A stretch of 64,000 bases of DNA from Maribacter litopenaei (GTDB lineage: Bacteria; Bacteroidota; Bacteroidia; Flavobacteriales; Flavobacteriaceae): the NCBI RefSeq assembly GCF_025244665.1, contig NZ_CP104205.1, positions 992,001 to 1,056,000 of the forward strand. Reading direction: 5' to 3'. This document shows positions 1,106 to 62,280 of this stretch, one piece after another. Each line of letters starts with the position of its first letter. Position 1 is the stretch's first letter. Made by a program: the position numbers and the translations under genes. The notes under the pieces are model-generated. The model made no database searches. It worked only from the letters and a program-made list of their open reading frames with translations, and was not told the DNA's origin.

Positions 1106-2039
1106 ATGAATCATGTTTTGGTCGCAAATAAGGTCTCCAAAAGGTACGGTGACCACGCTGCTTTGCAAAATGTTTCCATAGAAATTCCCAAAAATAGTAT
1201 TTACGGTTTGCTAGGCCCAAACGGGGCAGGTAAAACAACATTGATACGGATTATCAACCAGATTACATATCCCGACCAAGGAGAGGTGCTATTCGAAGGC
1301 GAACCCTTAAGGAGCGAACATATTGCACAAATTGGCTATCTGCCTGAGGAAAGAGGTCTTTACAAAAGTATGAAAGTTGGTGAGCAGGCTTTGTATCTCG
1401 GCCCAACTGAAAGGGTTGTCCAAAAGCGACGCCAAGCAAAAATTAAAGTATTGGTTTGATAGATTGGAGATAGGGGATTGGTGGGATAAAAAAATCCAAG
1501 AACTTTCTAAAGGAATGGCACAAAAGATACAGTTTATTGTGACCGTACTGCACGAGCCCAAACTCCTAATTTTTGATGAACCTTTCAGCGGTTTCGACCC
1601 AATAAACGCCAACATAATCAAGGACGAAATCCTTAATCTTAAGGAGAATGGAACCTCCATCATTTTTTCCACCCATAGAATGGAATCTGTAGAGGAATTG
1701 TGCGAGTACATTGCGTTAATTCATCGCTCGGAAAAAATACTGGATGGAAAGCTATCGGATATAAAGCAGGCCTATAAAAAGAATATTTTTAAAGTAGCTA
1801 TTGATACCACGACACCTTCCGGATTACTGGAACAATTAAAAAATAGTTTTACAATATTAGATTCAGCCACCATGAAAGGTCAATTGGATTTTTCCGTACA
1901 ACTCCAAAATGGCACATCTAACAAGTTGTTACAATTTTTAGGGACTCAGGGTATCATTAAAAGTTTTACGGAAACAATTCCTTCCACCAATGAAATTTTC
2001 ATTAGAACAGTAGAAAATAAAGGTGTTGCTCATGAGTAA
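1106..2039 (+). CDS. ABC transporter ATP-binding protein, NatA-type (one frameshift in this sequence)
   Basis: ATPase of an ABC-2 type exporter, acting with the permease that overlaps it downstream. Walker A is GPNGAGKT near residue 37, the signature LSKGMAQK, and Walker B LLIFDEPFSGFD. The C-terminal third is the extra domain typical of NatA-like exporters. The frame breaks at 1396-1401, where TCTCGG stands for an inferred TCTGG; removing one base gives Leu-Ala-Gln-Leu and restores 310 residues. I treat this as a sequence error because both halves are intact and the total is a whole number of codons. The stop overlaps the next start by 8 bases (ATGAGTAA), which suggests translational coupling. 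Substrate unknown. Confidence 0.88.
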
Positions 2040-3368
2040 GCTACCGTTAATTATCAAAAGAGAATATTTGGCGAAGGTCAGGAACAAGTCGTTCGTTATA
2101 ATGACATTTCTTAGCCCCTTTTTAATGGTAGGTATGATCGTTCTAATCGCCTATCTTACAAAATTGAATGACAATGAGAAGAGAATAATCGCCGTTCTGA
2201 ACGAAAGTGATTTTTTTGCCAATGAGTTTTTAACTTCAGAAAGTACTTCGTTTGTGAAATTCAGGGACATCTCATTGGAACAGGCAAAAGATTCGACAAT
2301 GAACATGGGGTATTATGGGCTGGTCTATTTGCCCAATGAGACCAATTTGGAAAAAGTAAGCCAGCGATCTTTTTTTTATAGTAAGGATGCACCAAGCACC
2401 AATACCCTGGAACGATTGGAGAAGATATTTAAGGAAAGACTGAAACAGGAAAGGTTAAGGGAATTTGGTATTTCTGCCAGTGAATATGCAGAAATGGACA
2501 ATGAGTATGAATTGAATATTTCAACTTTTGATGGGGAACATAACCTAAAGGGCATAAACGAGATAAAGGCCGTTATAGGTGGAGGCTTTGGTTATTTGAT
2601 TATGATGTTCATCATCATTTATGGTGGATTTGTAATGCGCAGTGTTATTGAGGAAAAAACTAGTAGGATCATTGAGGTCATCATTTCTTCCGTAAAGCCC
2701 TTTCAGTTAATGTTAGGTAAGATTATTGGGACATCCTTGGCGGGTATCACACAATTTGGAATTTGGATAATTTCCGGTGGCATCCTACTTTTTTTGTCAA
2801 TGGCAATTTTCAATATAGACCCTTCCGACATGTCAAAAGGAGGCATGGGTCGGGATTAGGCAGTGCACCTAATCCTATAATTTCTTCGGCAGACTCCAAT
2901 ATGATATTGTATGCCCAAGAAATTATGGATATACCCTGGGTTCTATTAATTTTCTTTTTTCTAATTTATTTCATTACGGGGTATTTAATATATAGTTCAA
3001 TTTATGCGGCCATTGGTGCTGCGGTTGATAACGAAACGGATACCCAACAATTTATTTTTCCTATCATATTACCCCTGATGCTAGCCATTTATGTGGGATT
3101 CTTTTCGGTCTTTAGCAATCCACATGGGCCTATTGCCGTCGGCTTCTCATTATTTCCGTTAACATCTCCTATAGTAATGCTTATGAGACTTCCCGGAGGT
3201 ATAGGGGAAGGTGGTGTTCCCATATGGCAATTGATCTCATCGATTTTGATATTAATAATTACCTTTATTGGTATCGTTTGGCTGGCCGCTAAAATTTATA
3301 GGGTAGGTATACTTATGTACGGTAAAAAGCCCAGCTATAAAGAGTTGCTTAAATGGCTTAAATATTAA
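2032..3368 (+). CDS. ABC-2 type permease, NatB-like (one frameshift)
   Basis: Inner-membrane subunit of the exporter whose ATPase is encoded just upstream. The start chosen is the ATG inside the upstream stop region. There is one N-terminal membrane helix (around residues 21-45), a large periplasmic loop of about 130 residues, then five or six helices in the C-terminal half, including the conserved cytoplasmic stretch RSVIEEKTSRIIEVIISSVKP. The frame breaks at 2850-2853 (TCGG; TCTGG inferred, one T lost); repair gives 445 residues. MscS follows after 2 bases. The sodium-export role of NatAB is only an analogy. Confidence 0.85.
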
Positions 3369-3370
3369 TA

Positions 3371-4297: not shown

Positions 4298-5170
4298 TGG
4301 GCAGATGTAGTTGGGCCCTAATATTTGTGTTTTTTGTAAACTTTACAAACTGGGCGCAAACCCCTGATGTTTTTAGGGCGGAATATATGTTGATGCCAGA
4401 AAACCGTGCAGGTGTGGAAACATCTAGGATTAAATTACTGGCGAACGTTCCTATTGCTATCCAAAAGAAAAGAGATTTTATAGTTTTGGGCAGTGAATAT
4501 AATCGTTACAATTTTGAAGTGCCGGATACTTTGTTCTCTAATGCGGGAGACCTAAGAAAGCTGCATGTTTTTGACCTGAACTTTGCCTACGTTTATAAAT
4601 TGTCCGAAGAATGGAGAATGGTAGGGGTAGTCACTCCAAGATGGTCCTCCAATTTTGTGGAGGAGCTCCAAGAGGACGATTTCAATATAAATTATACATT
4701 GGGAGCCTACCAAGACAAAAAGAATATAGAAAAGCCTTTTCGTTTGGTTCTAGGGCTATCCTATAATTCTAATTCCCCGGTTCAAGTACCTTTGCCCGTT
4801 TTGTATTATGAAAAGCGATTTCATCCCAATTGGTCCTATATCTTGGGAGTTCCAAAATCCGGAATGAAATATTTTACCCCAAAAGGTCATTTTTTCCGGA
4901 CGGAATTGTTTGTGGACGGATATTATGTCAACATCCAAAACAATATATTGCTTTCACGGAAACACTTTATCTACGGATGTTTCTTATACGGCATTATTAT
5001 TGACATTGGGATATCAGTATAAGATTACCAAGGATATGTCCGTTTATTTGGTTGGGGGGCACTCCCTTTTTCAAAATGGGGCACTTAGGGATAACGAAAG
5101 AAAGGATATTTTTACATTGTACGATGAAGCCGGGCTATATTTTAGAACGGGATTCAGAATAGGAATTTAA
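4294..5170 (+). CDS. DUF6268-type outer-membrane protein (one frameshift)
   Basis: The protein has an N-terminal signal peptide ending near Trp-Ala-Gln, then alternating aromatic/polar strands typical of a Bacteroidota outer-membrane beta barrel of the DUF6268 family. The frame breaks at 4954-4959, where TCACGG replaces an inferred TCTGG; repair reads Leu-Leu-Ser-Gly-Asn-Thr-Leu-Ser-Thr and gives 291 residues. It overlaps mscS by 4 bases and is followed by the response regulator after 10. The role is unknown; its position in an exporter/mechanosensitive operon hints at envelope stress. The family name is recalled, not searched. Confidence 0.75.
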
Positions 5171-5180
5171 AGAAAGTAGT

Positions 5181-6343
5181 ATGTCAAAGATTTTAGTGAT
5201 TGAAGATGAGGCTGCCATTAGAAGAGTATTGGTGAAAATACTCTCCGAAGAGAGCGATAGTTATATGGTGGAAGAAGCGGAAGATGGTCTTAAGGGATTG
5301 GAGACCATTAAAAATAACGACTATGACCTAGTTCTTTGCGACATTAAAATGCCTAAAATGGATGGCGTAGAAGTTCGGAAGCCGCTCGAAAAATAAAGCC
5401 TGAAATTCCGTTTATTATGATTTCGGGTCATGGCGATTTAGACACGGCTGTAAACACTATGCGTTTGGGTGCTTTCGATTATATATCAAAACCACCTGAT
5501 TTGAATAGATTATTGACAACCGTTAGGAACGCATTGGATAGAAAGGACTTGGTCGCCGAAAATAAAATTCTCAAGAAAAAAGTAAGCAAGAACTTTGAAA
5601 TGGTGGGGGAAAGCGATGAGATTTCTGCCATAAAGGAAATGATAGAAAAGGTGGCCCCAACGGATGCCAGGGTGCTCATTACTGGGTCAAACGGTACCGG
5701 TAAGGAATTGGTAGCTCATTGGTTGCACGAAAAGAGTGCAAGGAGCAAGGCACCTTTTATTGAAGTGAACTGTGCCGCCATTCCTTCTGAATTGATAGAA
5801 AGTGAATTGTTTGGTCATGTAAAAGGAGCGTTTACTTCGGCGGTAAAGGATAGGGCGGGTAAATTTGAAGCTGCCAATAAAGGAACCATATTCTTGGACG
5901 AAATTGGGGATATGAGCCTATCTGCCCAGGCAAAAGTGCTAAGGGCCTTACAAGAAAATAAAATTTCAAGGGTAGGGATCGATAAGGACATTAAGGTAGA
6001 TGTTAGGGTATTAGCGGCCACAAATAAAAACCTTCAAAAGGAAATAGAGGAAGGAAGGTTCCGTGAAGATTTGTATCACAGGCTTGCAGTCATTTTGATC
6101 AAGGTCCCAAGTCTTAATGATAGGAGGGAAGATATTCCATTGTTGATAGAACATTTCTCCAATAAAATTACTGACGAGCAAGGTATGCCTTCTAAAACAT
6201 TTTCGGAAAAGGCGGTCAAACTTTTAAAGGCTTATGACTGGACGGGAAATATAAGGGAACTTAGAAACGTGGTGGAAAGACTCATAATCTTAGGAGGTAC
6301 TGAGGTATCGGAAGAAGATGTAAAGCTTTTTGCCAGCAAATAA
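5181..6343 (+). CDS. Sigma-54-type response regulator, receiver plus AAA+ domain, no DNA-binding domain (one frameshift)
   Basis: NtrC-like regulator. The receiver domain covers residues 1-120, with the acidic pair in VIEDE and the phosphorylatable Asp in LCDIKMPKMDG. The AAA+ domain (about 145-375) has a Walker A variant GSNGTGKE, Walker B TIFLDEIGD, and GAFTSA where sigma-54 contact loops usually read GAFTGA. The protein ends soon after the AAA+ domain (NIRELRNVVERLIIL...), so the usual Fis-type helix-turn-helix is missing. The frame breaks at 5375-5378 (TCGG; TCTGG inferred), and repair gives 387 residues. It is the last gene of the operon; no histidine kinase gene lies nearby. Confidence 0.88.
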
Positions 6344-6351
6344 CCATGATT

Positions 6352-8117: not shown

Positions 8118-9487
8118 ACTTGTTATTGCTTGCCTTCTGTTTGTTCAAATTGGTTTTGCCCAAAATTCAGATGAAGAATTCATTAGGAAAATTTATGATG
8201 CTGCACTTACCAACGGCAAGTCCTATGATTGGTTAAACCATTTATCAAATCAAATAGGTGGACGCCTTTCAGGGTCCGTCCAAGCCCAACAGGCGGTTAA
8301 CTACACAAAGCAGGAATTGGATTCGCTTGGTTTGGATAAGGTCTCGGCTACAACCTGTAATGGTTCCAAAATGGGTGAGGGGAATACCGGAGTTTGCTTA
8401 TTTTGAAACCTCACCTGGAGTCACGACCAATGTTCCAATTACAGCACTTGGAGGCTCCATTGCCACGCCGCCTAATGGCCTGAAATCAGAAATTGTAGAG
8501 GTAGACGGGATTGAAGAACTGGCAGTTCTTGGAGAAGCAAAGATCAAAGGCAAAATAGTTTTTTACAATCGTCCTATGGATCCTACTTTGATCAATACCT
8601 TTTCTGCATATTCAGGTTGTGTGGATCAACGATATGCCGGTGCCATGGAAGCCTCTAAATATGGAGCTATTGGAATTATAGTAAGGTCTATGAATTTGCG
8701 ATTGGACGATTTCCCACATACTGGTTCTATGAGCTATGGGGATTTGCCCGAAAACGATAGAATTCCAGCGGCCGCTATCAGTACCAATGCTGCGGAGTTA
8801 TTAAGTGCCACCTTAAAACTAGACCCCAAGATTAAATTTTATTTCAAACAAAATTGCAAGCAGTTTCCCGATGTGGAATCTTATAATGTAATCGGTGAGA
8901 TAACTGGAAGCGATTTTCCGGAGGAAATTATTGTTGTGGGCGGGCATCTCGGATTCCTGGGATTTAGGGGATGGATCGCACGACGATGGCGCGGGTTGTG
9001 TGCAGAGCATGGAAGTATTGCAAGTTTTAAAACAGATAGGATATAAACCGAAAAGAACCATTCGAGCGGTACTATTCATGAATGAGGAAAATGGTTTAAG
9101 GGGAGGAACGGAATATGCTCGAGTTGCGGCGGAAAAGAATGAAAACCACATTTTTGGTTTGGAAAGTGATTACGGCGGTTTTACGCCACGGGGTTTTACT
9201 TTTGATGGTCCGATTCCAGTTTTCAAAGAATTCAAAGTTGGAAGAATCTTTTTGAGCCTTATCTAATCCATCTGTTCGAAAAGGGTGGAAGTGGTGCTGA
9301 TATAGGTCCATTGAAAAATGATTTGATTACACTAGCAGGCCTTCGACCTGATTCACAACGGTATTTTGACTATCATCACGCGGAAAATGATACGTTTGAG
9401 CAGGTAAACAAGAGGGAACTGGAGTTGGGTGCCGCAACAATGGCCAGTCTAATTTATCTTGTTGATAAATATGGTTTAACCCCTTAA
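8077..9487 (+). CDS. Secreted M28-family zinc peptidase (three frameshifts)
   Basis: Exported aminopeptidase/carboxypeptidase-type zinc enzyme. A signal peptide ends near FAQ; the start may be ATG 8077, ATG 8083 or GTG 8101, the last giving the most compact signal peptide. A protease-associated domain (around Ala-Leu-Gly-Gly-Ser to the Ala-Ala-Ile-Ser region) precedes the catalytic domain. Zinc ligands are readable after repair: GGHLDSWDLGDGSHDDGAG, then NEENGLRGG, and the C-terminal YFDYHHAENDTFE. Lesions are at 8342-8347 and 8947-8952 (both TCTCGG for TCTGG) and a lost A near 9235-9240 in an A-run. Repair gives 469 residues. Probably functions in periplasmic or extracellular peptide degradation. 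Confidence 0.87.
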
Positions 9488-9541: not shown

Positions 9542-9563
9542 CACTTCATTTAAAATATGCAAA

Positions 9564-10495
9564 ATGGAAGACGGATTATATGCGAAATTCAATACTAGTA
9601 AAGGTGAAATATTGGTAAAGCTTACTTATGACAAAACACCTGGAACAGTTGGAAATTTTGTAGCCTTGGCCGAAGGTAAAAGGAAAAACAAGATTAAGGA
9701 ACTGGGCGAGCCTTATTATGACGGATTAAAATTTCATAGGGTCATTCCGGATTTTATGATTCAAGGGGGCTGTCCTCTTGGAACTGGTACAGGTGATGCG
9801 GGCTATAAATTCGATGACGAGTTTCATCCGAATTGAAACATAATGGCCCTGGAGTTCTTTCTATGGCTAATGCCGGTCCTGGTACCAATGGAAGTCAATT
9901 TTTTATAACCCATGTCCCCACACCTTGGTTGGACGGAAAGCACACTGTTTTTGGACATGTAGCCGCTGGTCAGGAAGTTGTGGATTCCATCGCTCAAGGG
10001 GATATTATGGATTCCGTAGAGATTGTTAGGATTGGGGAAAAGGCCGAATCTTGGGATGCAGTAAAGGCTTTCGAGAAGTTTGAAACTTCAAAAGCCGAGC
10101 GCTTGGCTGCCGCTAAAGCAGCTCAAATAGCCGCATTAGACAAGATTGCCGCTGGGTTTGATGAAACAGATTACGGGCTTAGATACAAAATGATACAGAA
10201 GGGAGATGGACCAAAGGCCGAAAAAGGTAAAAAGGTGTCGGTTCATTATGAAGGGGCCTTGGTTGATGGCCAAGTTTTTGATTCTTCGTATAAAAGAAAT
10301 TCACCTATTGAATTTCAATTGGGAGTTGGTCAAGTAATCCCGGGATGGGATGAAGGTATTGGTTTGCTTCAGGTAGGGGATAAGGCGCGTTTTGTTATAC
10401 CGTCGGATTTGGCTTATGGAAGTGCCGGTGCAGGAGGTGTTATACCTCCGGATGCCACCTTGATTTTTGACGTTGAGTTAATGAAGGTGGGGTAA
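9564..10495 (+). CDS. Cyclophilin-FKBP fusion peptidyl-prolyl isomerase (one frameshift)
   Basis: Two unrelated prolyl isomerase folds in one chain. The cyclophilin domain covers roughly residues 1-165 ([14 protein letters not shown], then the catalytic-loop region [19 protein letters not shown]). A helical linker rich in Ala/Lys follows, and the FKBP domain occupies about 205-310 ([41 protein letters not shown]). This matches the dual-family immunophilin arrangement known from flavobacteria. The frame breaks at 9828-9831: CCGA for an inferred CCAGA, where Pro-Asp-Leu-Lys-His is expected. Repair gives 310 residues. No signal peptide is seen, so a cytoplasmic folding role is likely. Confidence 0.9.
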
Positions 10496-13114: not shown

Positions 13115-13676
13115 TCAATTCGTTTTCCACTTAATGTTGCAACCAATGCTTGGTTTTTGGGTGTCCGGAACTGGAGTGCCATTCAGAAGTGCTTCTATGG
13201 AATTGGATAAATCTTCACCAGTAAGGGGAATGCCATTTTCTCGGACGTGAGTCATCCAATTGCCCTCTATATACAAGTGACAGATTTGAATCGAACAAAT
13301 AAAAGTCCGGAGTACAAGCAGCGTCGTATGATTTAGCTACCTCTTGTGTTTCATCGTATAAATAAGGAAATGGGTAGCCTTCTTGGTTGGCTTTCACTTT
13401 CATAAGCTCAGGAGCATCCTGAGGGTACTTTTCAATATCATTACTGGAAATGGCGATGAACTGGATACCTTTTTCCCTGTAGACTTTGGCCAGCTCCGTT
13501 ATTTTAGGATTCACATGTATAACAAATGGACAATGATTGCAAATAAACATTACTACAGTACCCTTATTTCCTTTTAGCTGTTCTAGACTCAACATATTTC
13601 CGGATACAGTATCCAAAAGGTTAAAACTAGGAGCCTTTGTACCTAGGTCCAACATGTTGCTCGGTGTTCTTGCCAT
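13115..13676 (-). CDS. Thioredoxin-fold AhpC/TSA-type protein (one frameshift)
   Basis: A redoxin of the group often annotated as thioredoxin family protein. The redox centre is FICNHCPFV near residue 45 (Cys-Asn-His-Cys), followed by a peroxiredoxin/TlpA-like fold (AISSNDIEKYPQDAPE, then ACTPDFYLF carrying the cis-Pro). No signal peptide is seen, so it is cytoplasmic. The frame breaks at 13239-13244 (TCTCGG on the plus strand; minus strand CCGAGA for CCAGA); repair reads Ser-Arg-Pro-Glu-Asn-Gly-Ile-Pro-Leu-Thr and gives 186 residues ending at 13115. The electron donor is unknown. Confidence 0.85.
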
Positions 13677-13765: not shown

Positions 13766-14069
13766 ATGAAAACTTCATATATATCACTTTCAGAGGCAAT
13801 AAACGATTTAAAAAAAGAGGGATTTACCGAAGATTTTAACTTGTGTGATGCCGGAATCGAGAACAAAGCAAAAAAGAATATCCACAAAGCGGTAGACCTC
13901 AATGTTATTAAATACTATCGTTTTGAGGGACAAACCAATCCGAGATGATAGTACTATTCTTTATGTCATAGAAACTAGCAAGGGCGAAAAAGGACTCTTA
14001 GTGGATGCTTATGGTGTTTATGCGGGAAATGTTTCTAGGGAAATGATTGAAAAACTCAGGATTCAATAA
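13766..14069 (+). CDS. Small conserved protein, often annotated as phosphoribosylpyrophosphate synthetase-like (one frameshift)
   Basis: After repair this is 100 residues: MKTSYISLSEAINDLKKEG at the start, then a compact alpha/beta domain with an Asn-Pro-Asp-Asp-Ser-Thr-Ile-Leu-Tyr-Val-Ile strand and a C-terminal helix. Homologues in flavobacteria carry a PRPP-synthetase name, but the protein is far too short for that enzyme and lacks its ribose-phosphate motif, so the name is probably a propagated error. The lesion at 13940-13945 is CCGAGA for CCAGA. Function unknown. Confidence 0.75.
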
Positions 14070-15115: not shown

Positions 15116-16134
15116 AAAACTTTCTATATAGCTTGGTAAAGGTCTACATAAAAACAGGCTTACATTCTTATCATAAGAAAATTGAAGTTTTTGGATTGGA
15201 AAATGTACCTCCGGAGAAGCCGGTCTTGTTTTTGCCCAATCATCAGAGTGCTCTAATGGATGTATTGCTGATAGCGGTCGACTGTAACAGAAAGCCATAT
15301 TTTTTAACGCGTGCGGATGTCTTTGGTAAACCTTTGTTGAACAAAATATTCAAGTTTTTTCGGATGATTCCGGTTTATCGTATTCGTGATGGGCGGAGCT
15401 CCTTGAGTAAGAACGATGAAGTTTTTGATAGATGTTCCGAAATATTGGGACAGAATAAGGCCCTGGTCATGTTCCCGGAAGCCAATCACAATCTAAAACG
15501 CCGTGTACGGAATTTAAGTAAAGGCTTTACAAGAATTGTTTTTAGAACATTACAACGGCATCCGGATATCGATTTACAAATTGTTCCCGTGGGCCTAAAT
15601 TATAACGATGCGACCAGTTTTCCGGATTCCGTTGCTCTTTATTATGGCAAACCTTTGGATGCTCGATCGTTATTTGATGAATCGGACATTCAAGAATCTG
15701 AAAAAAGGACAAAAAGGGCGGTTTCCAATGCCCTGAAAAAGCTAACGACGCACATAGAATCCGAAGAGGATTATGACAGAATACTTTCATTTTTAGAAGC
15801 CAAGAAACTTTCCTATTTACGACCAAAAACTATTAATGAAAGAATAGAAGACTTTATTAAAGTGGACAGTGAAGCTATCAAGTATTCGCCACCTAATCAT
15901 AAAGGGAATTTTTTCAAAGTTTTAATAGGGTTCATAAACTTTCCTGTTTGGCTCGCTTGGAAAATTTTTATGAAACCCAAGGTCCGGGAACCCGAATTTA
16001 TGGGTACTTTGAGATACGCCACTGCCCAAGTAGGTTTTACAGTCTACTTTATGGTACTTTTTATTGTATCAACTTTCTTGGTGAGTGTTAAAATAGCATT
16101 GGCTCACGGTTATCGGTATTTATCTGCTAAATAG
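15112..16134 (+). CDS. 1-acyl-sn-glycerol-3-phosphate acyltransferase-like protein (PlsC family)
   Basis: Acyl transfer to a lysophospholipid or related acceptor at the membrane. The catalytic HX4D motif is NHQSALMD near residues 44-51, and the glycerol-3-phosphate-binding region includes MFPEAN (about 123-128). C-terminal hydrophobic segments (about residues 262-280 and 302-328) anchor it. The 340-residue length exceeds classical PlsC (about 240); the extra C-terminal part with two helices is common in Bacteroidota homologues. Overlap with the transporter gene suggests functional coupling. The acceptor is not known. Confidence 0.85.
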   Translation: MKNFLYSLVKVYIKTGLHSYHKKIEVFGLENVPPEKPVLFLPNHQSALMDVLLIAVDCNRKPYFLTRADVFGKPLLNKIFKFFRMIPVYRIRDGRSSLSKNDEVFDRCSEILGQNKALVMFPEANHNLKRRVRNLSKGFTRIVFRTLQRHPDIDLQIVPVGLNYNDATSFPDSVALYYGKPLDARSLFDESDIQESEKRTKRAVSNALKKLTTHIESEEDYDRILSFLEAKKLSYLRPKTINERIEDFIKVDSEAIKYSPPNHKGNFFKVLIGFINFPVWLAWKIFMKPKVREPEFMGTLRYATAQVGFTVYFMVLFIVSTFLVSVKIALAHGYRYLSAK

Positions 16135-18688: not shown

Positions 18689-19641
18689 ATGCTTACAAGA
18701 AGGCATATTAGGGTCAAGGTAATGCAGTGCATTTACGCCCTAATTCAATCCAAGGATGACTCTCTCCAAAAACAAGAGAAATTTTTAACTGTAAGCATAG
18801 AGAACACTTACACCCTTTATCTTTTATGGCTTAGTCTTTTTAATGAAATTCATCAAAAGGCCGCAGAACAACTAAACTTGTCCTCCAAAAAATATTTGAC
18901 GGACACCACTGATAATCAGTTTCCAAACAAATCTAAGTTTGTAAACAACAGACTTCTTGTTCAAATTCAAGAGAATCCTTTGGTCAAAGAAGAACTTTCC
19001 AACAGAAAATTGGATAACTGGTACTTGAACGAGGAATATATTAGGCTCATATATAAAGCGATTGTAGATAGCGATATGTACAAAGAGTACATGGCGAAAC
19101 CGAGACACAGGCTATGATCATGACAAAGAATTCATCATTGCACTCTTTAAGGAGGTCATAGCTCCCAATGAAAAAATATACGAGTATTTTGAGGATAATA
19201 AGCTTACCTGGGTAGATGATTTGCCAATTGTAAATACTTTTTTGGTGAAACAATTAAAAAAGGTAAAACCTAATCAAAATCACAAATTCTTTCTTCCCAA
19301 ACTATTAAAAGATAAAGGAAGATATGGATTTTGCCAATAAATTATTGAAAAAGACGTTGTTGACAAATGAGGTACTGGAAAAAGAGATTGAGGGCAAAAC
19401 TCCAAACTGGGATAAAGATAGAATTGCGGATGTGGATTCAATTTTATTGAAAATGGCCATTTGTGAGTTGCTCAATTTTCCGTCCATACCAGAGCGAGTT
19501 ACCATTAATGAATATCTTGAAATCGCTAAGGAGTATTCGACTCCAAAAAGCAGCATTTTCATCAATGGAATTTTGGACAAGCTCACAAAGGAATATAAGA
19601 AGGAAGGAAAGCTAAATAAAATGGGCCGTGGTCTGTTATAA
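18689..19641 (+). CDS. nusB: Transcription antitermination factor NusB, long flavobacterial form (two frameshifts)
   Basis: RNA-binding factor that joins NusE/S10 in ribosomal antitermination complexes. The N-terminal RRHIRVKVMQCIYAL and the C-terminal NusB core (ILLKMAICELLNFPSIPERVTINEYLEIAKEYSTPKSSIFINGILDKL) are unmistakable. The middle contains an insert making the repaired protein about 316 residues, twice the length of enterobacterial NusB but usual in this lineage. Lesions are at 19100-19105 (CCGAGA for CCAGA) and one extra G near 19316-19318 (AAAGGAAGAT), the latter not on the motif. It heads an operon with the DUF1573 lipoprotein and yajC. Confidence 0.93.
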
Positions 19642-42026: not shown

Positions 42027-42900
42027 ATGAAAACAACTTTTAAACTTTTTACACTTTTATTGGTGATTTTTTCCTTTTTGGCCTGTAGCGATGATGATGG
42101 CGACGCGGTATCGGAATTTACGGTGTCCACCATTTCGCCGAATCCGGGACTGTAGGTACAGAAATTAGAATTACAGGCACCGATTTCCCTTCCGATGCTT
42201 CTGATATCTCCATTTCGTTCAACGGAATTTCCGCTGATATAACTTCAGTAACCAATACTGAAATTATGACAACGGTTCCTTCGGCGCCGCTACTGGCAAA
42301 ATAGAAATTTCCGCGAATGGGTTTACAAAAATATCGGCGGCAACTTTTACGGTTTTATCAAATCTAGTAAAGGAGACCATTACAAACTTGGAGGCACCGC
42401 AGACCGGTGGGCAGGGCCAGCCGATAGGAGGCCCCTTTACAAAATTTAGTTTTGAAACCGGAGCCGTAACGGATAGTGAAACGGATTGGGACATTGCCTT
42501 TAGAGGTACCTCCATTGCGGTGAATGGCGGTACAGCCACTGGAACGAATGAAGAGCCGGCGAGGAACGGCAATGCCGGGGCCACGATACAAAATGGGATT
42601 TTTTCCGATATCACAAATGCCGCTGGACTCTCCTTTGATCAGGATGCAGCAGGTTCTTTTGCCGTACCTGCTGGAAGTGGCGAAGGATGGTACAATTACA
42701 ATCCAGCCACCTTTACAGTGACCCCCATACCGGGCAGGATATTGGTATTTAGAACCCATGACGGTAAATTTGCCAAGATTGAGATTGTAAGTTATTACAG
42801 GGATGCACCTGCGGAACCGGATGCATTTTCGGATGAATCGAGGGTATACACCTTCGATTATGTGTACAATCCCAACGAAGGCGAAACCGCATTAGAATAA
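42027..42900 (+). CDS. HmuY-like haem-binding lipoprotein with IPT/TIG domain (two frameshifts)
   Basis: A 291-residue lipoprotein after repair. The lipobox is FLACSDDD (Cys at residue 20). Next comes an IPT/TIG domain (ISPN, Gly-Thr-Val-Gly-Thr-Glu-Ile, ITGTDFPSDA), then a HmuY-type beta domain (GGPFTKFSFETGAVTDSETDWDIAFRGTSIAVNGGTATG to RVYTFDYVYNP). The conserved Asp-Trp-Asp-Ile-Ala-Phe core is the family hallmark. Two bases are missing: at 42144-42148 (CCGGG, perhaps CCAGGG) and 42287-42290 (CCGC, perhaps CCAGC). It may capture haem at the surface and pass it to the upstream receptor. Confidence 0.82.
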
Positions 42901-43140: not shown

Positions 43141-44614
<1,474 letters not shown>

Positions 44615-44620: not shown

Positions 44621-47188
44621 TTAAGGTTTTATTGCTTTTCTTAAAAGTTGTACCCTTCTCAGGTCATCGGCAGCTTGCCATAATTTACTTTTAAGAGACG
44701 GATTTAATTCGGATTGACGTCCAAATAATCCTGCATGATTAGATAGGCCTCTTCGGAAGTATGATTTCCAATGGTACTGCTAAGCCAACGTTTGGGAAAG
44801 AAAATATCACCAGTTTTTTGTATCTCATCCAAAAGATCTAGACTTTCCCTAAGCTTTTTAAGCGCATAGTTTTCATGTAGCGGATGATTAATGTTGTTCA
44901 ATGCCGATGCCGTCCAGGCCTCCTTTGAACGGTTCTTTTCAAGTTTCAGGGATTCCATAAAGTCGCTTTTAACCGATGCATCCTGGGAAACGGAAGGTAG
45001 CAGGAAGTTGAAGCGTTCCAATTTGTCCGGATTGTCAAGGGCATTTTTAGCCGTTTGCAAAATTTCCTGTGATTTAGGATGTTGATAGAGTGCTAGGTCC
45101 AAGGCCATTTCGGTAAAGTCATCCTTGTTCAGTCGAAGATTGGATATTTCGATTTTTTTGGACCAAATGTCGTACAACTGTTGGATGGAAGCTCCTGTGT
45201 AAGCCACCGACTGGAAGGTTGAGAACAAGGTCTTTTTCTTGTTCGGGGAAAGGTCCTTTTGCAGTTGGGACTATAAATTATCGGTGATTTTGGACTGCTC
45301 CAAACGCCGTTCTTCTTCCGTCAGGTATTTCCGAACAAGCTTTTCGAATACCCCGATAACAAATTCGCTAACAATTCATTCCCTTCCGGATACAATCGGT
45401 TTTCATAAAAACGGAGTAGCTCCAAAGGTTTTATAGTTCCATTTAAAGCATTTTCATAGGCGTTTATGTACAAGGAGCCTCTAGCGACTTCATTCCCTAT
45501 AATCGCTATAGTCTCAAAAGCTTCGGATTTATTGGAAAGACGCCATATCCCATACCATCTGAATTATAAAGGACTGCGAGTGGTTTTGGAAGTCCAACCG
45601 CTTCGGTTACTTTTACGGTGTTTCCTGTAAATTCCACGGGAATTCTTTGAATGGTATCGGTGTGGATTAAGGAGATCTCGAAAATCGGGGCCAAATATAG
45701 TCCGAAGCATCTTCGGCCATTTGTCTCAATTCAAAAGAGGATATCTTGCCGCCCTCCGTATATGTTACACTATCCTTGAAAATAGGCCTGCCGGAACTGT
45801 TTACCCATACGTTACTCCAAGTAAGAAGGTCTATATCCGTACGGTCATCCAAAATCTTCACGAGGTCGTTCCAATTCGCATTCGAATTTTGATAGGTTTT
45901 TATATATTCCTGAATACCCATTTGAAAGTTTTCCTTACCCAAGACCGCTTCCAACTGTCGCATCATAATGGGCGCCTTGTTATAGATGATACTGCCATAA
46001 AGCGAACCCGCATTGTTGAGGTTTTTCAATTCTTGCCTGATTGGATTCGTACCTTTTGTACGGTCTTCACCGTAAGCACTTGGGTAATGGCCCACCATAA
46101 ATGCCAATTCATGGTTTATTGAAGGAAATGTGGGATTTACGATTTTATCCGCCATGAAGTTGGCAAAAACTTCCTTCATCCAAACATCATTGAACCAATC
46201 CATGGTTACCAAATCCCCGAACCACATATGGGAGGTTTCATGGGCGATCAGTTTGGCCCTACCCAGTTTTCTGTTTTCCGTAGCGCTGCCATCCAAAAAA
46301 AGGGAACTTTCCTTGTATTGAATGGCCCCCACATGTTCCATGCCACCGTATTGAAAGCCTGGAATCGTGGCAAAATTCAATTTTTGAAAGGGGAAGGGAA
46401 AATCGTTATAGAATTCGAGAAACAGTTTGGAACTGTGGTGCAACTGGAAAATGGAATCGATACTGTACCTGATTTTTTCTTCATCGGTTTCCCGATATAA
46501 CATTTTCATAGGAAAATTGGCTATTGCCATTTCTTCGGATTTAAACTTTCCCGCCACGAATGAAAAAAGATAGGTGCTCATTTTGTCCGACTCCCCAAAC
46601 CGGTGCTCCGTAAATCCGTTTTTGTTGACCTCGTCAATTTCTCGGAGCGGCACAGAGTACTTTCCAGTTTTCAGGGGCGGTAATTGTCAACGTGTAGGTA
46701 GACTTTAAATTAGGTTGGTCAAAGCAGGGAAAAAGGGTTCGTGCACGATCCGGAACCAATAACGTATATAAGTATTCTTCATTTCGATTTAGCGAAAGTT
46801 CACCTGCCCAAAAATCGATTTCTATTGTATTTGTTCCTTCCTTTAAATGATTCGTAGGAATTATAATATGTTCGTTCCTATGTTCGATTTCAATTTCGGA
46901 GCCATTGACTACTAACTTTTTTAAATGGTCCGATTCTTCTTTGAAATCGAGAAAAAGTGGAGTGTTTGAATCTTGGAGTGATAGTGCTAGTAATAATTTG
47001 GAGTCAATTGGGTTCGCTTTGTTTTCGGGTATACTAAAACTTAAATGGTAATTTACATTGGATATATTTTCCTTCCTGATTTTGGCCAGCTTTAAGGGAA
47101 CACCGGCTTCAGGCATATATTGTTTATCGGGACCTGAACTACAATTGAAACAAATAAGAACAGGAAGGAGAAATATTATAGGACGCAT
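44621..47188 (-). CDS. M1-family aminopeptidase lipoprotein (five frameshifts, one false stop)
   Basis: Zinc aminopeptidase, 856 residues after repair. The lipobox (FNCSSG) implies envelope attachment. The exopeptidase motif reads GGMEH (GAMEN class), and the zinc site is HETSHMWFGDLVTMDWFNDVWMKEVFANF (HExxH with Glu further on). Five breaks all fit the CCAGA/TCTGG rule: 46640-46645, 45685-45688, 45523-45526, 45353-45356 and 44709-44712. A TAG near 45272-45277 in the same frame (Asn-Leu-stop-Ser-Gln-Leu) is unexplained, probably a miscalled Trp. The last break extends the C-terminus to the stop at 44621. It converges with guaB. Confidence 0.88.
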
Positions 47189-47344: not shown

Positions 47345-47877
47345 CTATTTACCAGCTCCCGAATAAGTCTTCCAGTCTTTGTCCTTGTAAATATTATCAC
47401 CAAAATATCTAGCAATATTTAAGAAGGGTTCTGGTTTTTGGTAACCTGGGACGGGGGATAGCATATTGAATTGTTCGTCTAAGAAAATAGTTGTTGGGTA
47501 GCTTAATCTTCCCTGCATTAATGCTGCGGCCAATTCATGATATCCTTTCCTGCCTGAAGGCACAAATTTATAGGTTTTTCCTTTGAATTCGATAGGTTCC
47601 GCGCCTTCGCCGTCAAGCTTTACCATATAGAAATTTTTAGTCATATAAGCGGCTACTTCGGATTTTGGAACGTATCCTTGTCCATTTTTTTGCACCACCC
47701 GCACCAATCGGTATAGACGTCAACAAAAACTTTTTTTGGATTTTTATCAGTAGCCGCCAACTCAGCAGCTTCGTTCCAGGAAAGCCATTTCACTTCCTGG
47801 GCCTCGATTCCCATGGAAAGAAGGAAAAAAGAAGCTAAAAAAAGGTGTTTAATATGAGTGGCAATGCTAGTTTTCAT
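47345..47877 (-). CDS. Secreted thioredoxin-fold protein (one frameshift)
   Basis: A 177-residue exported redoxin after repair. The signal peptide ends near GIEAQ. The active site is DWCGWCKKMDKDTF (about residues 57-70), of the thioredoxin/DUF255-like type, and the fold continues with YPTTIFLDEQFNMLSPVPGYQ, carrying the cis-Pro. The frame breaks at 47658-47661 (TCGG; coding strand CCGA for CCAGA), where Asn-Pro-Glu-Val-Ala-Ala-Tyr is expected. Probably a periplasmic reductase of disulfides. Confidence 0.87.
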
Positions 47878-47934: not shown

Positions 47935-49173
47935 TTATTTCACTTTTTCTCGCTGCTTGACAGCAAATAGATCCTTTACATCTACTTGATTTTTAATCAA
48001 ATCGTCAAACGTCTCACGTTCCCTAATTAAAATAGCTTGTCCTTTATGCCATAAAACCTCCGGTGGTCTAAATCCGGAGTTATAATTGCTGGCCATAGTA
48101 AAGCAGTAGGCGCCGGCATTTTTGAAACAAAGAATATCTCCTTCCGATATCTCATTAATCCTCCTATTGCTGGCAAATGTGTCGGTTTCACAGATATAAC
48201 CAACAATGGAATAGTAGCGCTCCCTTCCTTCGGATTTGAAATGTTTTCTATGGAATGGGTAGCACCATAAAACATAGGTCGTATCAAATGGTTAAAACCG
48301 GAATCAATACTAGCGAATACCGTAGAAGTGGTTTGTTTTACAACATTTACCTTTGCCAAGAAGAATCCGGCTTGACTTACCAAGAATTTTCCAGGTTCGA
48401 AAGCCAAGGTCAATTCCTTTCCATATTCCTTGCAGAATTCATTGAATCTTGAACCCAACTTTTTTCCCAATTCCTCAACGTTCGTCTCAATATCGCCTTC
48501 TTTGTAGGGAACCTTGAATCCACTTCCAAAATCGATAAAATCCAAATTTTTGAAGTTTTTGGCGGTTTCAAAAAGAATTTCCGAAGCGTAGAGGAATACA
48601 TCGATGTCCAAAATATCGCTTCCGGTATGCATGTGGATTCCGTTGATGTTCATTTTGGTAAGCTCAACAATTCGCAATAAATGCGGTATTTGATGTATGC
48701 TAATTCCGAATTTCGAATCAATGTGACCCACGGATATTTTAGAATTCCCACCGGCCATTACATGTGGATTTATCCGAATACATACAGGGATATCAGGATG
48801 TTTGCTACCAAACTGCTCTAAAATGGAAAGATTGTCAATATTTATTCGAACGCCCAATTTGGCCGCTTCCTCAATCTCTTCCAAGGAAACGCCATTGGGA
48901 GTGAATATAATGGATTCACGGTTTGAAACCTGCCAACAGGCCGAGTTGTACCTCCTGTATAGATACCGTGTCAAGACCACTTCCTAAACTGTTCATTAGT
49001 TTTAAAATGGTGATGTTTGAAAGTGCTTTGGCAGCATAGTTTAATTTCAAATTCTTTACGGTACCAAAAGCCCTGGTAAGACGATTGAATTGGGAAATTA
49101 TTTTTTCGGAGTCATAAACGTATACTGGGTCTCCGTAGGTTTTAGCGATTTTTAGTAAATCCGCATTTTTCAT
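47935..49173 (-). CDS. lysA: Diaminopimelate decarboxylase (two frameshifts)
   Basis: Last step of lysine synthesis, PLP-dependent. The PLP lysine is in NYAAKALSN (Lys49); HMHTGSDI, the glycine-rich phosphate loop DFGSGFKVPY and EPGKFLVSQAG complete the cofactor site. After repair the C-terminus contains the catalytic CETDTFASNRR region, and the total is 412 residues. Lesions at 48916-48921 (TCACGG; coding CCGTGA for CCAGA) and 48230-48233 (TCGG; coding CCGA for CCAGA) compensate in length. A -7 element TAGCTTTG lies upstream on the minus strand. Confidence 0.94.
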
Positions 49174-56752: not shown

Positions 56753-58744
56753 TTAAGTTTCTTGCTCCTGAAGCGCCTTGATTTCATCCCTAAGTTTAGC
56801 GGCTTGCATAAAATCCAACTCCTTTGCTGCCTTTTCCATCGCCTTTCTTTTTTCTCTAATGAGCTTATCTAATTGATCTTTTGTGATGTATTCCAAGTCA
56901 GGTTCCGCAGCCCTTAATTCTTCTTTTTGAAAGTGGTAAGTGGAGACAGAATTTTTAGAAAGTACACTGTCCAAATTTTTGTTGAGGGCCTTGGGAGTAA
57001 TGTTGTTTTCTGTGTTGTAATTGATTTGTTTTTCCCGACGATAATTTGTTTCATCAATGGTTTTTTGCATGCTCTCTGTGATCTTATCGGCATACATAAT
57101 TGCCTTTCCGTTTAGGTTTCGGCAGCTCTACCAACGGTCTGAGTCAACGATCTATTATTACGTAAAAATCCTTCCTTGTCCGCATCCAAGATAGCAACCA
57201 AAGAAACCTCTCGGAAGATCTAATCCCTCCCTAAGGAGATTGACCCCAATCAGCACATCAAAAATTCCCTTTCTAAGATCTTGCATAATCTCTACACGCT
57301 CCAAGGTATCCACGTCACTATGGATATATCTACATCGAACACTAATTCGATCTAAATACTTTGCAAGTTCCTCTGCCATCCTTTTGGTAAGCGTGGTAAC
57401 CAATATCCGTTCATCGCGTTCTACTCGTTGATGGATTTCTTCCACTAGATCATCAATCTGATTCAGGCTGGGACGCACCTCAATAATAGGGTCCAACAAT
57501 CCCGTGGGACGTATGACCTGCTCTACGTACACACCTTGACTTAGCTGCAATTCGTAATCCGCTGGCGTGGCACTAACATAAATGACTTGGTTTTGTAAAG
57601 CCTCGAACTCTTCGAATTTTAGGGGTCTGTTATCCATGGCTGCAGGCAGTCTAAAACCATAGTCCACCAGATTGACTTTTCTAGAACGGTCCCCTCCATA
57701 CATTGCATGTACTTGCGGAACGGTAACATGACTCTCATCGATGACCATTAGATAATCATCTCGGAAAATAGTCCAACAAGCAGAAGGGTCTTGTTCCCGG
57801 TTTTCTGCCGTCCAGATATCTAGAATAGTTTTCTATACCTGAGCAGTAGCCTAATTCCCGAATCATTTCCAAGTCAAAATTGGTCCTTTCCTCCAACCTT
57901 TTGGCCTCAAGAGGTTTGCCTATTTCCTTGAAATACTCAATTTGCTTCACCAAATCATCCTGTATTTCATGAATGGCGTTTTGCAATACATCTTGAGAAG
58001 TCACAAACATATTGGCGGGGTAGATATTCAGATTTTCGTATATCTCCAATACGTTGTTATTAAATGGGTCGAAGGCTTCTATTTCCTCAATTTCATCCCC
58101 AAAAAAATGAATCCTAAAAGCATGATCCGCATAACTAGGAAATACATCTACCACATCTCCTTTGACCCTGAAATTCCCATTTCTGAAATCTCCCGTTGTT
58201 CGGAATAAAGGCTTTGTACCAATTGATGAAGAAACTTTGTTCCGGATATGACCTGGTCTTTTTTGATCGAGATAACATTCTTTTGAAACTCGATCGGGTT
58301 TCCAATTCCATAGAGACAGGAAACGGAGGCCACAACCAATACATCCCTTCTTCCTGACAATAGGGAAGAAGTGGCACTTAGCCTAAGTTTTTCAATATCC
58401 TCGTTTATGGATAGGTCTTTTTCAATATAAACACCGCTAGTTGGGATGTATGCCTCCGGTTGATAATAATCGTAATAGGAAACAAAATATTCTATGGCAT
58501 TTTTTGGAAAAAATTGTTTGAATTCTGAATATAGTTGTGCCGCCGGAGTTTTGTTATGGGCCAAAACCAAGGTGGGTCGCTGTACCCCTTCAATAACATT
58601 CGCAATAGTAAATGTCTTTCCTGATCCCGTAACACCTAATAGGGTTTGATACTTTTCACCGTCCTTGATTCCGCTGGATAATTGTTTTATAGCGTTAGGC
58701 TGATCTCCAGTGGGATTAAATTCTGATACTACATTAAATTTCAT
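56753..58744 (-). CDS. uvrB: Excinuclease ABC subunit B (four frameshifts)
   Basis: Damage-verifying helicase-like subunit of nucleotide excision repair. Walker A is GVTGSGKT (about residues 38-45), the beta-hairpin region [13 protein letters not shown], helicase motifs [13 protein letters not shown] and [10 protein letters not shown], and the C-terminal UVR domain [28 protein letters not shown]. The four breaks (58200-58203, 57759-57764, 57209-57214, 57119-57122) all fit CCAGA/TCTGG and sum to zero, giving 663 residues. A fifth motif copy near 57811 is intact. An essential-type repair gene with four breaks argues strongly for sequence error. Confidence 0.96.
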
Positions 58745-58849: not shown

Positions 58850-60309
58850 TCAGCGTTTAAGTGTAAAGTGCCCCTTTATTTCCTTTTTGTTAAAGGAAAT
58901 GGCTCTGAACCAATAATCCGAAGCAGGCATAAGCCTTCCGTTAAAAATCCCATTCCATCCTACCGATTTTGGATCTATTTGGGCAATGAAGTTCCCATAC
59001 CTATCAAATATATGGATGACTTCGACCGAAATCTCGCTCGAGTTGTTTGGGTTCCTATACTGCCAATAGTCATTATAACCATCTCCATTTGGAGTAAAAA
59101 AAGAAGGGAAGTCCTGAAGTGATAATTCCTTTTCTATAAGCCGCTCGGTAATGCCACAACCAAGCCTGTCTTTTACAAATACCTTTCTTTCCCCAGGTTT
59201 GACATTTGTAAATACAGGACTGTCTTGAAAATTCTTATCGGGACTATCTAGGGCATATTCAAACTCTCCTAATTCTTCAACCCTTACAGTTATCGTGAGC
59301 CCGCTATTTCCTCTAGTTATGATTACATCTTCTATGATTGGCACTATGGAATTTACTACTTGAAAATTCTTAGATACGGGACACTCTATAGTTCCGCCAA
59401 ATTCATTTATGGTGTTGTAAAGTTCCAAACGATATTGTCCAACTTTTTCATATTTTAATTCGGGTGCCTCTGAAATTATGGTTTCGCTTCCATCGGCCTC
59501 AATGAATATCCATCGATATCCCCTAGCTGGATTGTTAGATTTAAGAATTCCAAATGGTTCGTTTTCACATAAGGCCACCTTATCGGGAATTGAAATTATT
59601 GGGTAGTCGAATTCTTGGCAGCTAACTGTTGGTACCCCTGTGGTAAAGCTTTCTTCCAAACATCCGCTCGCCGAACCATTTTCATTTAGTGGTATTATTA
59701 AAACAAAATACTCTTGATTGAGTTCCAAATTTTCATCTAATCCATAGAAAATTGTATTTCCTGTTAGTTCATTTTCAACAATGTCATAAATACCAGGGGA
59801 GGTTCCAATTGAAATTCTGTAATCGGTTGCCCCTGGGGCATATTCCCATTTAAGATTGGTGTTTACCCGTACCCCCGTTTCATTATTTTGGGGATTGGCT
59901 AGCCTTGTACATTCGGAGGAGTGGTAATGGTTTCCGTAGTGAAAATTTTTAACGGGCACACTTTAATTGGGGCATCCGGAAGAAATAAACTTATAGTGAC
60001 ATATACCACAGTGTTCGAAGGTAAACCCACCTCAGGTTGGTAGAAATTATTGAGACCGGAAGATCTTCTGTTTATAATTTCCCCACCACCTGGCGTGGTT
60101 CCAAGGGATACAAGGTAACCAATGATGCCATCAACGGCTGTCCACTCTATTAGGTTATCCACGGGTACATCGGTAGCACCGTCAAGTGGAGAAATAAGTG
60201 TTGGGCATTCTTGGGCATTTCCCTTTAATGTGAGAAAACTAATCACGATAAATAATAAAGGGATAATCCTTTTCCTCACAGCAATTGGTTTTTTGTCGAA
60301 ATAAAGCAT
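58850..60309 (-). CDS. T9SS type-B sorting-domain surface protein (one frameshift)
   Basis: A 486-residue secreted protein after repair. The signal peptide ends near GNAQ, followed by two fibronectin-like repeats of the pattern CPTLISPLDGATDVPVDNLIEWTAVDGIIGYLVSLGTTPG and CTRLANPQNNETGVRVNTNLKWEYAPGATDYRISIGTSPG. The C-terminus is the CHU_C/type-B sorting domain: FFTPNGDGYNDYWQYRNP, then HIFDRYGNFIAQIDPKSVGWNGIFNGRLMPASDYWF. It is exported by type IX secretion and attached to the surface. Lesion at 59913-59916 (TCGG; coding CCGA for CCAGA, Pro-Pro-Glu-Cys). Ligand unknown. Confidence 0.9.
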
Positions 60310-60536: not shown

Positions 60537-61370
60537 TTATAAATCGCGCTTTTTGAGCAAAATATAGGATAGGTATATGAATATTGCCGTCCAAGCAATG
60601 ACAATAATAAATTCATACCAATGAACTTGGTAATTCAATCCGATTTCCTCTCCAACTTGATTTGCTACAGTCTGAACAGCTTCAAGCCGTGCAAAAGGCT
60701 GTTTTATCAAATTGAACATGGATTGCAGAGGGAAAAAGCCCATAATCGTGTCCGTAGTATCTCCATCAAATAACTTCCAACGAATCAATCCTCTTATAAT
60801 ACCCTCCAATATTTGCCATAGGATTAAAAATCCTAAAGCAAAGGCTGAACGCTTCACGAGTATTCCCAAAAAAAGGCAGAATGAGAAAAAACCCATTAAC
60901 TTAAAAAAGAACGCCGCTAGAAATTCCAAATCTGAAAATATAATGGACAACTCATCGTAATCAGAATATATAAGTCCTAATATCAAGGACACCACAAATA
61001 CAAATAGAGTTGAGATTACAGAAAAGGATACGACCGTCAAAAATTTTGAGAGTATGAATTCTTTTTTGGAAAGTCCATCAATGAGGTTCTGCTTGATGGT
61101 TTTATTGCTGTATTCGTTGGACATCATTGACACTATGACGATGGCCAAGAACAGTTTAAAAAAGGCGGTAACAAACGTGTTGAAGTGCCATATATATGGA
61201 AAGTTAAATATTCCAATCTCTGCCAAATGAAACTTAACAGGACCAATATCGAACTTAATGGCAGCCACCAATGCTATAGATGTTAGGATGAAAAAATAGG
61301 AAATAATAAGCACCTTGCTTGCCCTATTGTTCCATAGCTTGATGAACTCTATTTGTAATAATCGTATCAT
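60537..61370 (-). CDS. ABC-2 type permease
   Basis: A 277-residue inner-membrane protein with six helices (residues 20-38, 62-82, 104-130, 142-160, 165-185, 250-272). It is the membrane half of the exporter whose ATPase lies 8 bases upstream on the same strand. The conserved LIDGLSKKEFILSKFLTV loop sits between helices 2 and 3. The frame is intact. The 228 bases after its stop up to the sorting-domain gene hold no gene. Confidence 0.85.
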   Translation of the reverse strand: MIRLLQIEFIKLWNNRASKVLIISYFFILTSIALVAAIKFDIGPVKFHLAEIGIFNFPYIWHFNTFVTAFFKLFLAIVIVSMMSNEYSNKTIKQNLIDGLSKKEFILSKFLTVVSFSVISTLFVFVVSLILGLIYSDYDELSIIFSDLEFLAAFFFKLMGFFSFCLFLGILVKRSAFALGFLILWQILEGIIRGLIRWKLFDGDTTDTIMGFFPLQSMFNLIKQPFARLEAVQTVANQVGEEIGLNYQVHWYEFIIVIAWTAIFIYLSYILLKKRDL

Positions 61371-61378
61371 GATTTTGG

Positions 61379-62280
61379 CTAGTTTGATTGATTTTTGGTG
61401 AGTGTCAGGAATTGTTCCTCAAGACTTTCCTTCCTTTTTACGAGATGGGATAATACTATGCCATTTTTAAAAAGGGATTCGTTCAAGGTCTTAGCATCCA
61501 TTTCTTCGGAGAGGAATGCGGTAATCAATCCATTTTCATATTTTATCTCGCCAAAATTTGGATTGGATTTAAGGGTAATGGCCAATTTTTCCATGTCATT
61601 GGATTTCAATTCAAAGAAGCCATGGCTAGCCATCATACCATCGACTAGTCCGAATATAATTTCTCTCCTTTTCTTAGGATAATCACATGGCTACATACCT
61701 TTTCTACCTCGTCCAATAGGTGGGAAGCCAATAAAATAGTTGTTCCCTGCGATGCAATTTTTTTTATGATTTCCCTAATTTGATGGATTCCTTGTGGATC
61801 TAATCCATTGGTTGGTTCATCTAGAATAAGAATTTCAGGGTCATTAAGAAGGGCGGAGGCAATGGCCAAACGCTGTTTCATACCTAGTGAATAGGTTCTA
61901 AACTTACTATTCTTTCGGTCTAATAGCCCCACTAACTCAAGTTTCTCATCAATTTTATCGGCACCAACTTCCTTGATTTTACAAACCAGTTTTAAATTCT
62001 GAACGGCCGTCATGTATGGGTAGAAATTGGGACGTTCTATAATGGCGCCTACTTTTTTCAAAGCCTCATGGGTCGAAGTATTACCATCGAACCAATAAAA
62101 GTCCCCACTGGTTTTGTTTACAACGTTCAGAACAATACCCAAGGTGGTGGATTTTCCACTTCCATTGGATCCAAGAATGCCATAAACATTACCTTTTTCT
62201 ATGGAAAAGGATAAATCCTTTACAGCGGTTAAATAGCCAAATTTTTTGGTGAGGTTGTTTACGGTAAGAATAGTGCTCAA
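61379..62280 (-). CDS. ABC transporter ATP-binding protein (one frameshift)
   Basis: The ATPase of the exporter encoded with the downstream permease. Walker A is GSNGSGKST, the signature region is YSLGMKQRLAIA and Walker B is ILILDEPTNGLD. The C-terminal extra domain (FFELKSNDMEKLAITLKSNPNFGEIKYENGLITAFLSEEM to EEQFLTLTK) is usual in this class. The break at 61650-61653 (CCGA on the plus strand; coding TCGG for TCTGG, Tyr-Ser-Gly-Leu-Val-Asp-Gly) is repaired to 300 residues. Substrate unknown. Confidence 0.9.

Follow-up and report, generated by a model that had tools for sequence, protein, structure and literature searches.

A probable base-calling artefact at a putatively modified CCAGA pentamer accounts for most broken genes in a 64-kb stretch of the Maribacter litopenaei genome

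The stretch of DNA considered here (the window; 64,000 nt, G000:C1:992001-1056000) lies in the one-contig genome of Maribacter litopenaei (G000; 3,864,532 bases). Its succinyl-CoA ligase has its best named matches in Flavobacteriaceae (Pelagihabitans, Pseudozobellia, Maribacter and Flagellimonas; 93-95%). When window genes were aligned to the relative G005, 25 of 52 were found to be broken as deposited. Gene names were taken from the relatives' intact copies; of the 25 broken frames, 20 were checked for a name and 9 of these 20 were matched. The broken frames include those for IMP dehydrogenase, UvrB, peptidase T, an aminopeptidase N-like protein and dihydroorotate dehydrogenase. The genome as a whole has a completeness value of 81.68, while among 18 same-genus relatives 16 stand at 97-100% and two at 83 and 85. 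Most of the frameshifts called in the window fall at a few written forms of one asymmetric pentamer, CCAGA (TCTGG on the other strand), and very probably reflect errors of base-calling at that pentamer.

Four relatives with syntenic stretches (G002, G005, G007 and G013) align to the window at 69-91% DNA identity, in pieces longer than 300 bases. Frameshifts were called as frame-breaking gaps in BLAST alignments to these four relatives, within frames that are open in the relatives. The 167 gap clusters obtained in this way yielded 43 consensus frameshifts, defined by the support of at least two relatives and of two thirds of those covering the position; events present in one relative were dropped from the consensus set. 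A preliminary description of this stretch had claimed about 36 sites broken at CCAGA forms and listed 33 coordinates. Of these, 28 lie no more than 8 nt from a consensus frameshift, while random sets of 33 covered positions reach 0.45 on average and 3 at most (1000 draws). The remaining five comprise two sites supported by one relative (28046 and 36134), two same-length changes (23001 and 23016), and one site within a noisy alignment. The substitutions at 23001 and 23016 fit, if weakly (one relative has TCTGG at one of the two), false stops rather than frameshifts. All 14 of the CCGAGA/TCTCGG coordinates named in that description are present, as are its six examples of intact CCAGA; it had counted about 20 intact copies, and 22 are found on the two strands of the window, compared with 99.5 (sd 10.1) in shuffles. 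The sites are as follows, with the strand where one is assigned, a one-base gain or loss written as +1 or -1, and "unlisted" marking those absent from the earlier list.

1396..1401, minus strand: TCTCGG form, +1, against four relatives
2840..2855: consensus -1 with TCGG form near, consensus of relatives; unlisted
4954..4961, minus strand: TCACGG form, +1, consensus of relatives
5373..5378, minus strand: TCGG form, -1, against four relatives
8342..8347, minus strand: TCTCGG form, +1, against four relatives
8947..8952, minus strand: TCTCGG form, +1, against four relatives
9208..9214, plus strand: CCGA form, -1, against four relatives; unlisted
9827..9832, plus strand: CCGA form, -1, against four relatives
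13239..13244, minus strand: TCTCGG form, +1, consensus
13940..13945, plus strand: CCGAGA form, +1, consensus
16098..16110, minus strand: consensus +1 with TCACGG alongside; unlisted
19098..19105, plus strand: CCGAGA form, +1, consensus
21111..21117: CCGA/TCGG form, -1, consensus
21411..21416, plus strand: CCGAGA form, +1, consensus
23000..23021, minus strand: two TTACGG copies (23001, 23016), substitutions, same length as all four relatives
23281..23286, minus strand: TCACGG form, +1, peptidase T frame, consensus
28046..28051, plus strand: CCGAGA form, +1, against G005, the sole relative aligned there
31860..31865: CCGA/TCGG form, -1, consensus
32071..32076: CTGAGA form, +1, consensus
36134..36139, minus strand: TCTCGG form, +1, against G005 only, the aligned G002 having no gap
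39303..39309: CCGA/TCGG form, -1, consensus; unlisted
39617..39622, plus strand: CCGAGA form, +1, consensus
42280..42286: CCGA/TCGG form, -1, consensus; unlisted
44140..44145, minus strand: TCTCGG form, +1, IMP dehydrogenase frame, consensus
44706..44712: CCGA/TCGG form, -1, aminopeptidase N-like frame, consensus; unlisted
45330..45360: frameshift region with noisy alignment, including the listed 45353
45521..45526: CCGA/TCGG form, -1, consensus
45684..45690: CCGA/TCGG form, -1, consensus
46640..46645, minus strand: TCTCGG form, +1, CCAGA in three relatives
47657..47662: CCGA/TCGG form, -1, consensus
48228..48233: CCGA/TCGG form, -1, consensus
48916..48921, minus strand: TCACGG form, +1, consensus
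57118..57123: CCGA/TCGG form, -1, uvrB frame, consensus
57209..57214, minus strand: TCTCGG form, +1, uvrB frame, consensus
57759..57764, minus strand: TCTCGG form, +1, uvrB frame, consensus
58200..58205: CCGA/TCGG form, -1, uvrB frame, consensus
58241..58245: CCGGA, substitution class, non-silent in its frame, CCAGA in three relatives
59913..59920: CCGA/TCGG form, -1, consensus
61649..61654: CCGA/TCGG form, -1, consensus
670..674, minus strand: intact CCAGA, one of the 22 copies, from the sequence

A written form is present within about 8 nt of 34 of the 43 consensus frameshifts (about 3.6 expected), and CCGA/TCGG is near 30 of them (2.8 expected). Furthermore, each form has its own sign: the CCGA sites are deletions in 18 cases of 18, the CCGAGA sites are insertions in 12 of 12, and the other forms are insertions in 4 of 4. 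Nine frameshifts have no such form. One of these, at 16098, has TCACGG just beyond the range of about 8 nt; the others lie at 17971, 19315, 23846, 25346 (the break in the dihydroorotate dehydrogenase frame), 25805, 26377, 31241 and 33536. Six of the nine are near homopolymer-like runs of at least 4 (about 2.8 expected from background), and the rest are without evident cause. Errors at homopolymer-type runs are the other classic error of long reads and may explain these six; as the main cause of the breaks they were rejected, given the CCAGA form at 34 of the 43.

The motif also emerges when the earlier list is set aside and every pentamer of the relatives within the coding alignment is scored against its window counterpart. 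Among pentamers with at least 30 sites, CCAGA of the relatives has the highest frame-break rate (26/294). It is kept intact in the window at only 5 of 294 sites, compared with 55/262 for CCAGT, 38/204 for CCAGG and 28/159 for CCAGC; the latter are ordinary rates. At ten sites where at least three relatives have CCAGA, the window has no intact copy, and at coding-frame sites where all of the covering relatives have CCAGA the count is again 0/10, although CCAGT, too, is kept at only 3/10.

The effect extends well beyond the window. A sample of 464 kb of the genome (the window and 20 stretches of 20 kb each) was compared with expectations derived from the relatives. In this sample no other of the 512 pentamers is as depleted as CCAGA (154 vs 752 expected, log2 -2.28), and the next, GGACC/GGTCC, is far less so (333 vs 520, log2 -0.64). 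Of the 2,024 hexamers for which 40 or more copies were expected, the most enriched is CCGAGA (214 vs 84); the whole genome has 1,760 copies of it, compared with 759 of the reversed word. Thus, about 80% of the CCAGA copies are missing, rather than the two thirds estimated in the preliminary description. The copies that are kept depend on the following base (T, 91/216; G, 22/111; A, 34/341; C, 7/84), which is what an effect of the k-mer within a pore would give. CCAGAT is present at 193 per Mb, while 35 genus relatives have a mean of 512 and a minimum of 406, none of them with a comparable deficit; strain specificity was judged on these counts and on the CCAGA content of roughly 72 kb from each of the four relatives.

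The missing copies appear to be largely recovered in other guises. TCCAGA is down to 61 of 267, TCCGGA is up to 480 from an expected 225 (an excess of about 127 sites, because the word is a palindrome and each site is counted twice), and CCGTAA is up by 79. Adding the gains of CCGAGA (130), CCGTGA (45) and CCGAA (111) gives a total of about 490, compared with 598 missing CCAGA; this total is approximate and does not count events. Same-length substitutions, above all TCCAGA to TCCGGA, seem to be part of the same phenomenon, a correction to the preliminary description.

The broken genes themselves appear to be functional. The codon-position ratios of the 25 broken and 27 intact genes are 0.163 and 0.198 against G005, 0.167 and 0.204 against G007, and 0.177 and 0.208 against G013; since broken genes are as constrained by codon position as intact ones, there is no sign of relaxed selection. 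In addition, the same forms split essential transcription genes elsewhere in the genome. Three frames at one place correspond to rpoC, which is a single frame of 1,425-1,458 amino acids (aa) in the 15 near-complete relatives searched. Five breaks in rpoB and rpoC are called against both G005 and G007, and all five are beside a form; the relative's word at these breaks is CCAGA in four of five (G005) and three of five (G007).

Taken together, these results indicate that the breaks are very probably not mutations but an artefact of long-read, probably nanopore, base-calling at a modified CCAGA. Under this proposal, a modified base would be present within CCAGA/TCTGG at most genomic copies. A base-caller untrained on the altered signal would then read CCGAGA, CCGA, CCGTGA, TCCGGA or CCGTAA, depending on the neighboring bases, and the consensus would keep the error at about 80% of the sites. 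The fixed motif, the few fixed forms and the dependence on the next base argue for a reading error at the level of the signal; strain specificity argues for a modification rather than the base-calling model alone, insofar as the relatives were sequenced on comparable platforms. The modification as the cause, the platform and the share of sites that are modified are all what we infer from the assembly. The likeliest chemistry would be 5-methylcytosine (5mC, or m5C) at the second C, placed there by a type II m5C methyltransferase.

Several observations weigh against this reading or complicate it. The intact rate of CCAGA in the coding alignment is not the lowest, as the rare CGCGC (0/31) and CGCGA (1/59) are as low or lower, and frameshift rates are also raised at the relatives' CCGGA (31/361) and CCTGA (17/306), which we interpret as the same sites after divergence at silent positions. 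Four of the ten unanimous CCAGA sites read CCAAA/ACAAA in the window, like ordinary divergence. The relatives differ in their frequency of TCCGGA (0.33-0.67 per kb, compared with 1.03 in G000), CCGTA and CCTGA as wholes show no excess, and CCGAGA alone is not significantly enriched in the window (22 vs 16.4, a level reached by 11 of 100 shuffles). When all gaps in the fetched rpoB/rpoC stretch are considered, coding or not, a form is present at 10 of 21 (G005) and 9 of 19 (G007), and the others have none. Finally, a mark on one strand should leave half of the reads clean; for about 80% of sites to be wrong, both strands must be affected or the polisher must be biased.

Other explanations fare less well. 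That the genes are pseudogenes undergoing real decay is the least credible of all and is rejected: the sheer proportion of broken genes speaks for it, but the written forms also interrupt rpoB and rpoC, the third-position bias is equally strong in broken and intact genes, and each form has a fixed motif and sign. In this respect the preliminary description, which had favored an artefact over biological decay, is borne out, as it is by the CCAGAT deficit being specific to this genome. True avoidance of CCAGA under restriction, with the frameshifts unrelated, would resemble the depletion if that were considered alone; it is highly improbable, since the gained forms make up most of what is missing (by the rough sum above) and the frameshifts carry those same forms. 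A weakness of the base-caller at unmodified CCAGA, with no DNA modification at all, is somewhat easier to entertain but still improbable. The dependence on flanking bases fits any error at the signal level, but an intrinsic weakness should strike other genomes read with the same model, and none of the 35 genus relatives (platforms not known) has a comparable CCAGAT deficit; moreover, the rates at which CCAGG, CCAGT and CCAGC survive are ordinary.

The two remaining alternatives keep the artefact but change the mark, and we consider each unlikely, though less so than the foregoing. In one, the mark is N6-methyladenine (m6A) or N4-methylcytosine (m4C), written by an enzyme of type III or type IIG; this is a version of the modified-CCAGA reading, and the odds of the two overlap. 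The motif is short and asymmetric, as such enzymes would have it, and an enzyme on an unassembled plasmid or of another family is conceivable, but the families searched offer no good candidate in the genome (below). In the other, the mark lies outside the three usual methylations and outside current base-calling models and is strong on both strands, and such marks can be read from finished assemblies by comparing k-mers with those of relatives. If this were true, public long-read assemblies would hold an unread record of modified motifs.

Five methyltransferase families were searched, with no match in the window, as the preliminary description had stated. Its suggestion of a typical type III or type IIG system found no support in these families, whose matches in the genome are subunits of type I enzymes, short proteins and three cytosine-5 methyltransferases. 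There is no match in G000 to PF02086 (D12) or to PF01555 (N6_N4_Mtase, type III Mod), the latter having matches in 12 of 21 genomes and in 11 of 14 controls. PF07669 (Eco57I-type) gives four weak matches (best E 1.5e-9), two of which lie in frames (490 and 355 aa) with a match to the type I model as well and two in frames of 284 and 252 aa; thus, by PF07669, there is no long Eco57I-type methyltransferase fused to a nuclease, the MmeI and PglX models being outside this search. By the models and frame reading, the PF02384 and PF07669 matches correspond to two type I loci and two short frames. The two type I restriction-modification loci, identified by PF02384 match and frame reading, are at L069 6795-10986, where the methyltransferase and specificity frames look split, and at L071 3713-10834.

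Of the three cytosine-5 methyltransferases, the first candidate for the CCAGA writer would be, by elimination only, an accessory gene (G000:C1:1952124-1953629) that has an N-terminal helix-turn-helix (HTH) and is followed by an HNH_2 protein (the two together at G000:C1:1952124-1954719). Among 396 other genomes sampled from the family, two, G322 and G393, have close relatives of this enzyme (89% and 87%), and in each of them a frame of 366 or 323 aa comes next. An attempt to tie the gene to CCAGA through avoidance in these two genomes failed: neither avoids the pentamer (observed/expected, O/E, 1.21 and 1.11), a result that also counts against the proposal as a whole. The second gene is split into two frames (G000:C1:3174909-3176331), and a neighboring shortened frame matches RE_EcoO109I, the site of which we take to be GGNCC-like. 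The two form a type II system (G000:C1:3174148-3176331), and GGACC/GGTCC has an O/E of 0.46, which may be true avoidance. Because of this neighbor, its presumed site and the rank of GGACC/GGTCC as the second most depleted pentamer, the split gene was set aside as the writer. The third gene (3681918-3683162) was set aside because a frame of the same family, of 410-437 aa, is present in 7 of 8 genus relatives; it is 72% identical over 402 aa to the one relative compared, and the orthology of the others is assumed. The split and the widespread gene each remain candidate writers.

Systems that act at CCAGA are known. It is exactly the site of the restriction enzyme BspNCI in the Biopython enzyme table, which gives no cut position for it; a literature search for this enzyme found no paper. 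FspEI cuts at a C that is followed by 5mC. In Neisseria meningitidis, NEIS0771 is described as a type II m5C methyltransferase of CCAGA (PMC7046676, PMC7973814). For serogroup W, CCAGA is reported to have been confirmed by MspJI cleavage while undetected by single-molecule real-time (SMRT) sequencing (PMC7973814); in an earlier study of serogroup Y, cleavage by MspJI and FspEI pointed to CCAGR, interpreted by the authors as CCWGG together with CCAGA (PMC7046676). Combined with the cutting rule of FspEI, the latter result would place the mark on the second C of CCAGA. The Neisseria enzyme has the same motif as G000, a likeness drawn at the level of the motif, and 5mC at CCAGA is a plausible identity for the mark; the passages on CCAGA in these papers do not mention base-calling errors (PMC7046676, PMC7973814).

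Artefacts of this kind have also been described. The nearest precedent, an account of Listeria monocytogenes (PMC10687267), reports systematic nanopore consensus errors at lineage-specific GCAGC or GCTGG, attributed to modifications on which the base-caller was untrained, with 1,533-5,670 Oxford Nanopore Technologies (ONT) mismatches per low-quality genome; these were checked with Illumina data, and whole-genome amplification improved quality (Modpolish). As in G000, the errors are concentrated at one short lineage-specific pentamer. However, and to the detriment of the comparison, the Listeria errors are described there as mismatches rather than indels, whereas those of G000 are one-base indels plus substitutions; in addition, the motif here is CCAGA, the phylum is another and the case is known from the assembly alone. 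An ONT R10 study of N. meningitidis and Salmonella (PMC12506013) describes consensus errors associated with 5mC. It resembles the G000 case in its link to 5mC, should that be the mark here, and includes a species able to harbor an enzyme for CCAGA, but 199 of its 208 discrepant single-nucleotide polymorphisms (SNPs) are G or C read as A or T, unlike in G000, and its text never uses the word "motif". The kind of artefact is therefore already known, while CCAGA as its motif is new as far as we have searched, no report of such a base-calling artefact at CCAGA having been found in the literature searched.

As deposited, 25 of the window genes aligned to G005 would be annotated as broken. Scaled from the 464 kb, there would be roughly 5,000 affected sites genome-wide (an estimate, not a count), and the artefact may explain the low completeness value of G000. 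Left uncorrected, it would mislead studies of gene loss, frameshifting and metabolism in this genome. The results also suggest that an assembly is enough to reveal a modified motif: the pentamer most depleted relative to relatives is the motif, and the most enriched hexamer is one of its error forms. The same k-mer test can be applied to other genomes that have been sequenced only with long reads and have relatives.

Other features were observed along the way. Positions 37390-38880 of the window encode an ankyrin-repeat protein that shares 43.8% identity with one from a plasmid of Spirosoma oryzicola. G005 aligns across these positions, but in the stretches fetched from G007, G002 and G013 no piece longer than 300 bases does. 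GATC is under-represented in G000 (O/E 0.55) and in three of the four relatives, but not in G002 (0.91). In the 464-kb sample CGATCG is rare in G000, with 20 copies vs 61 expected from the relatives.

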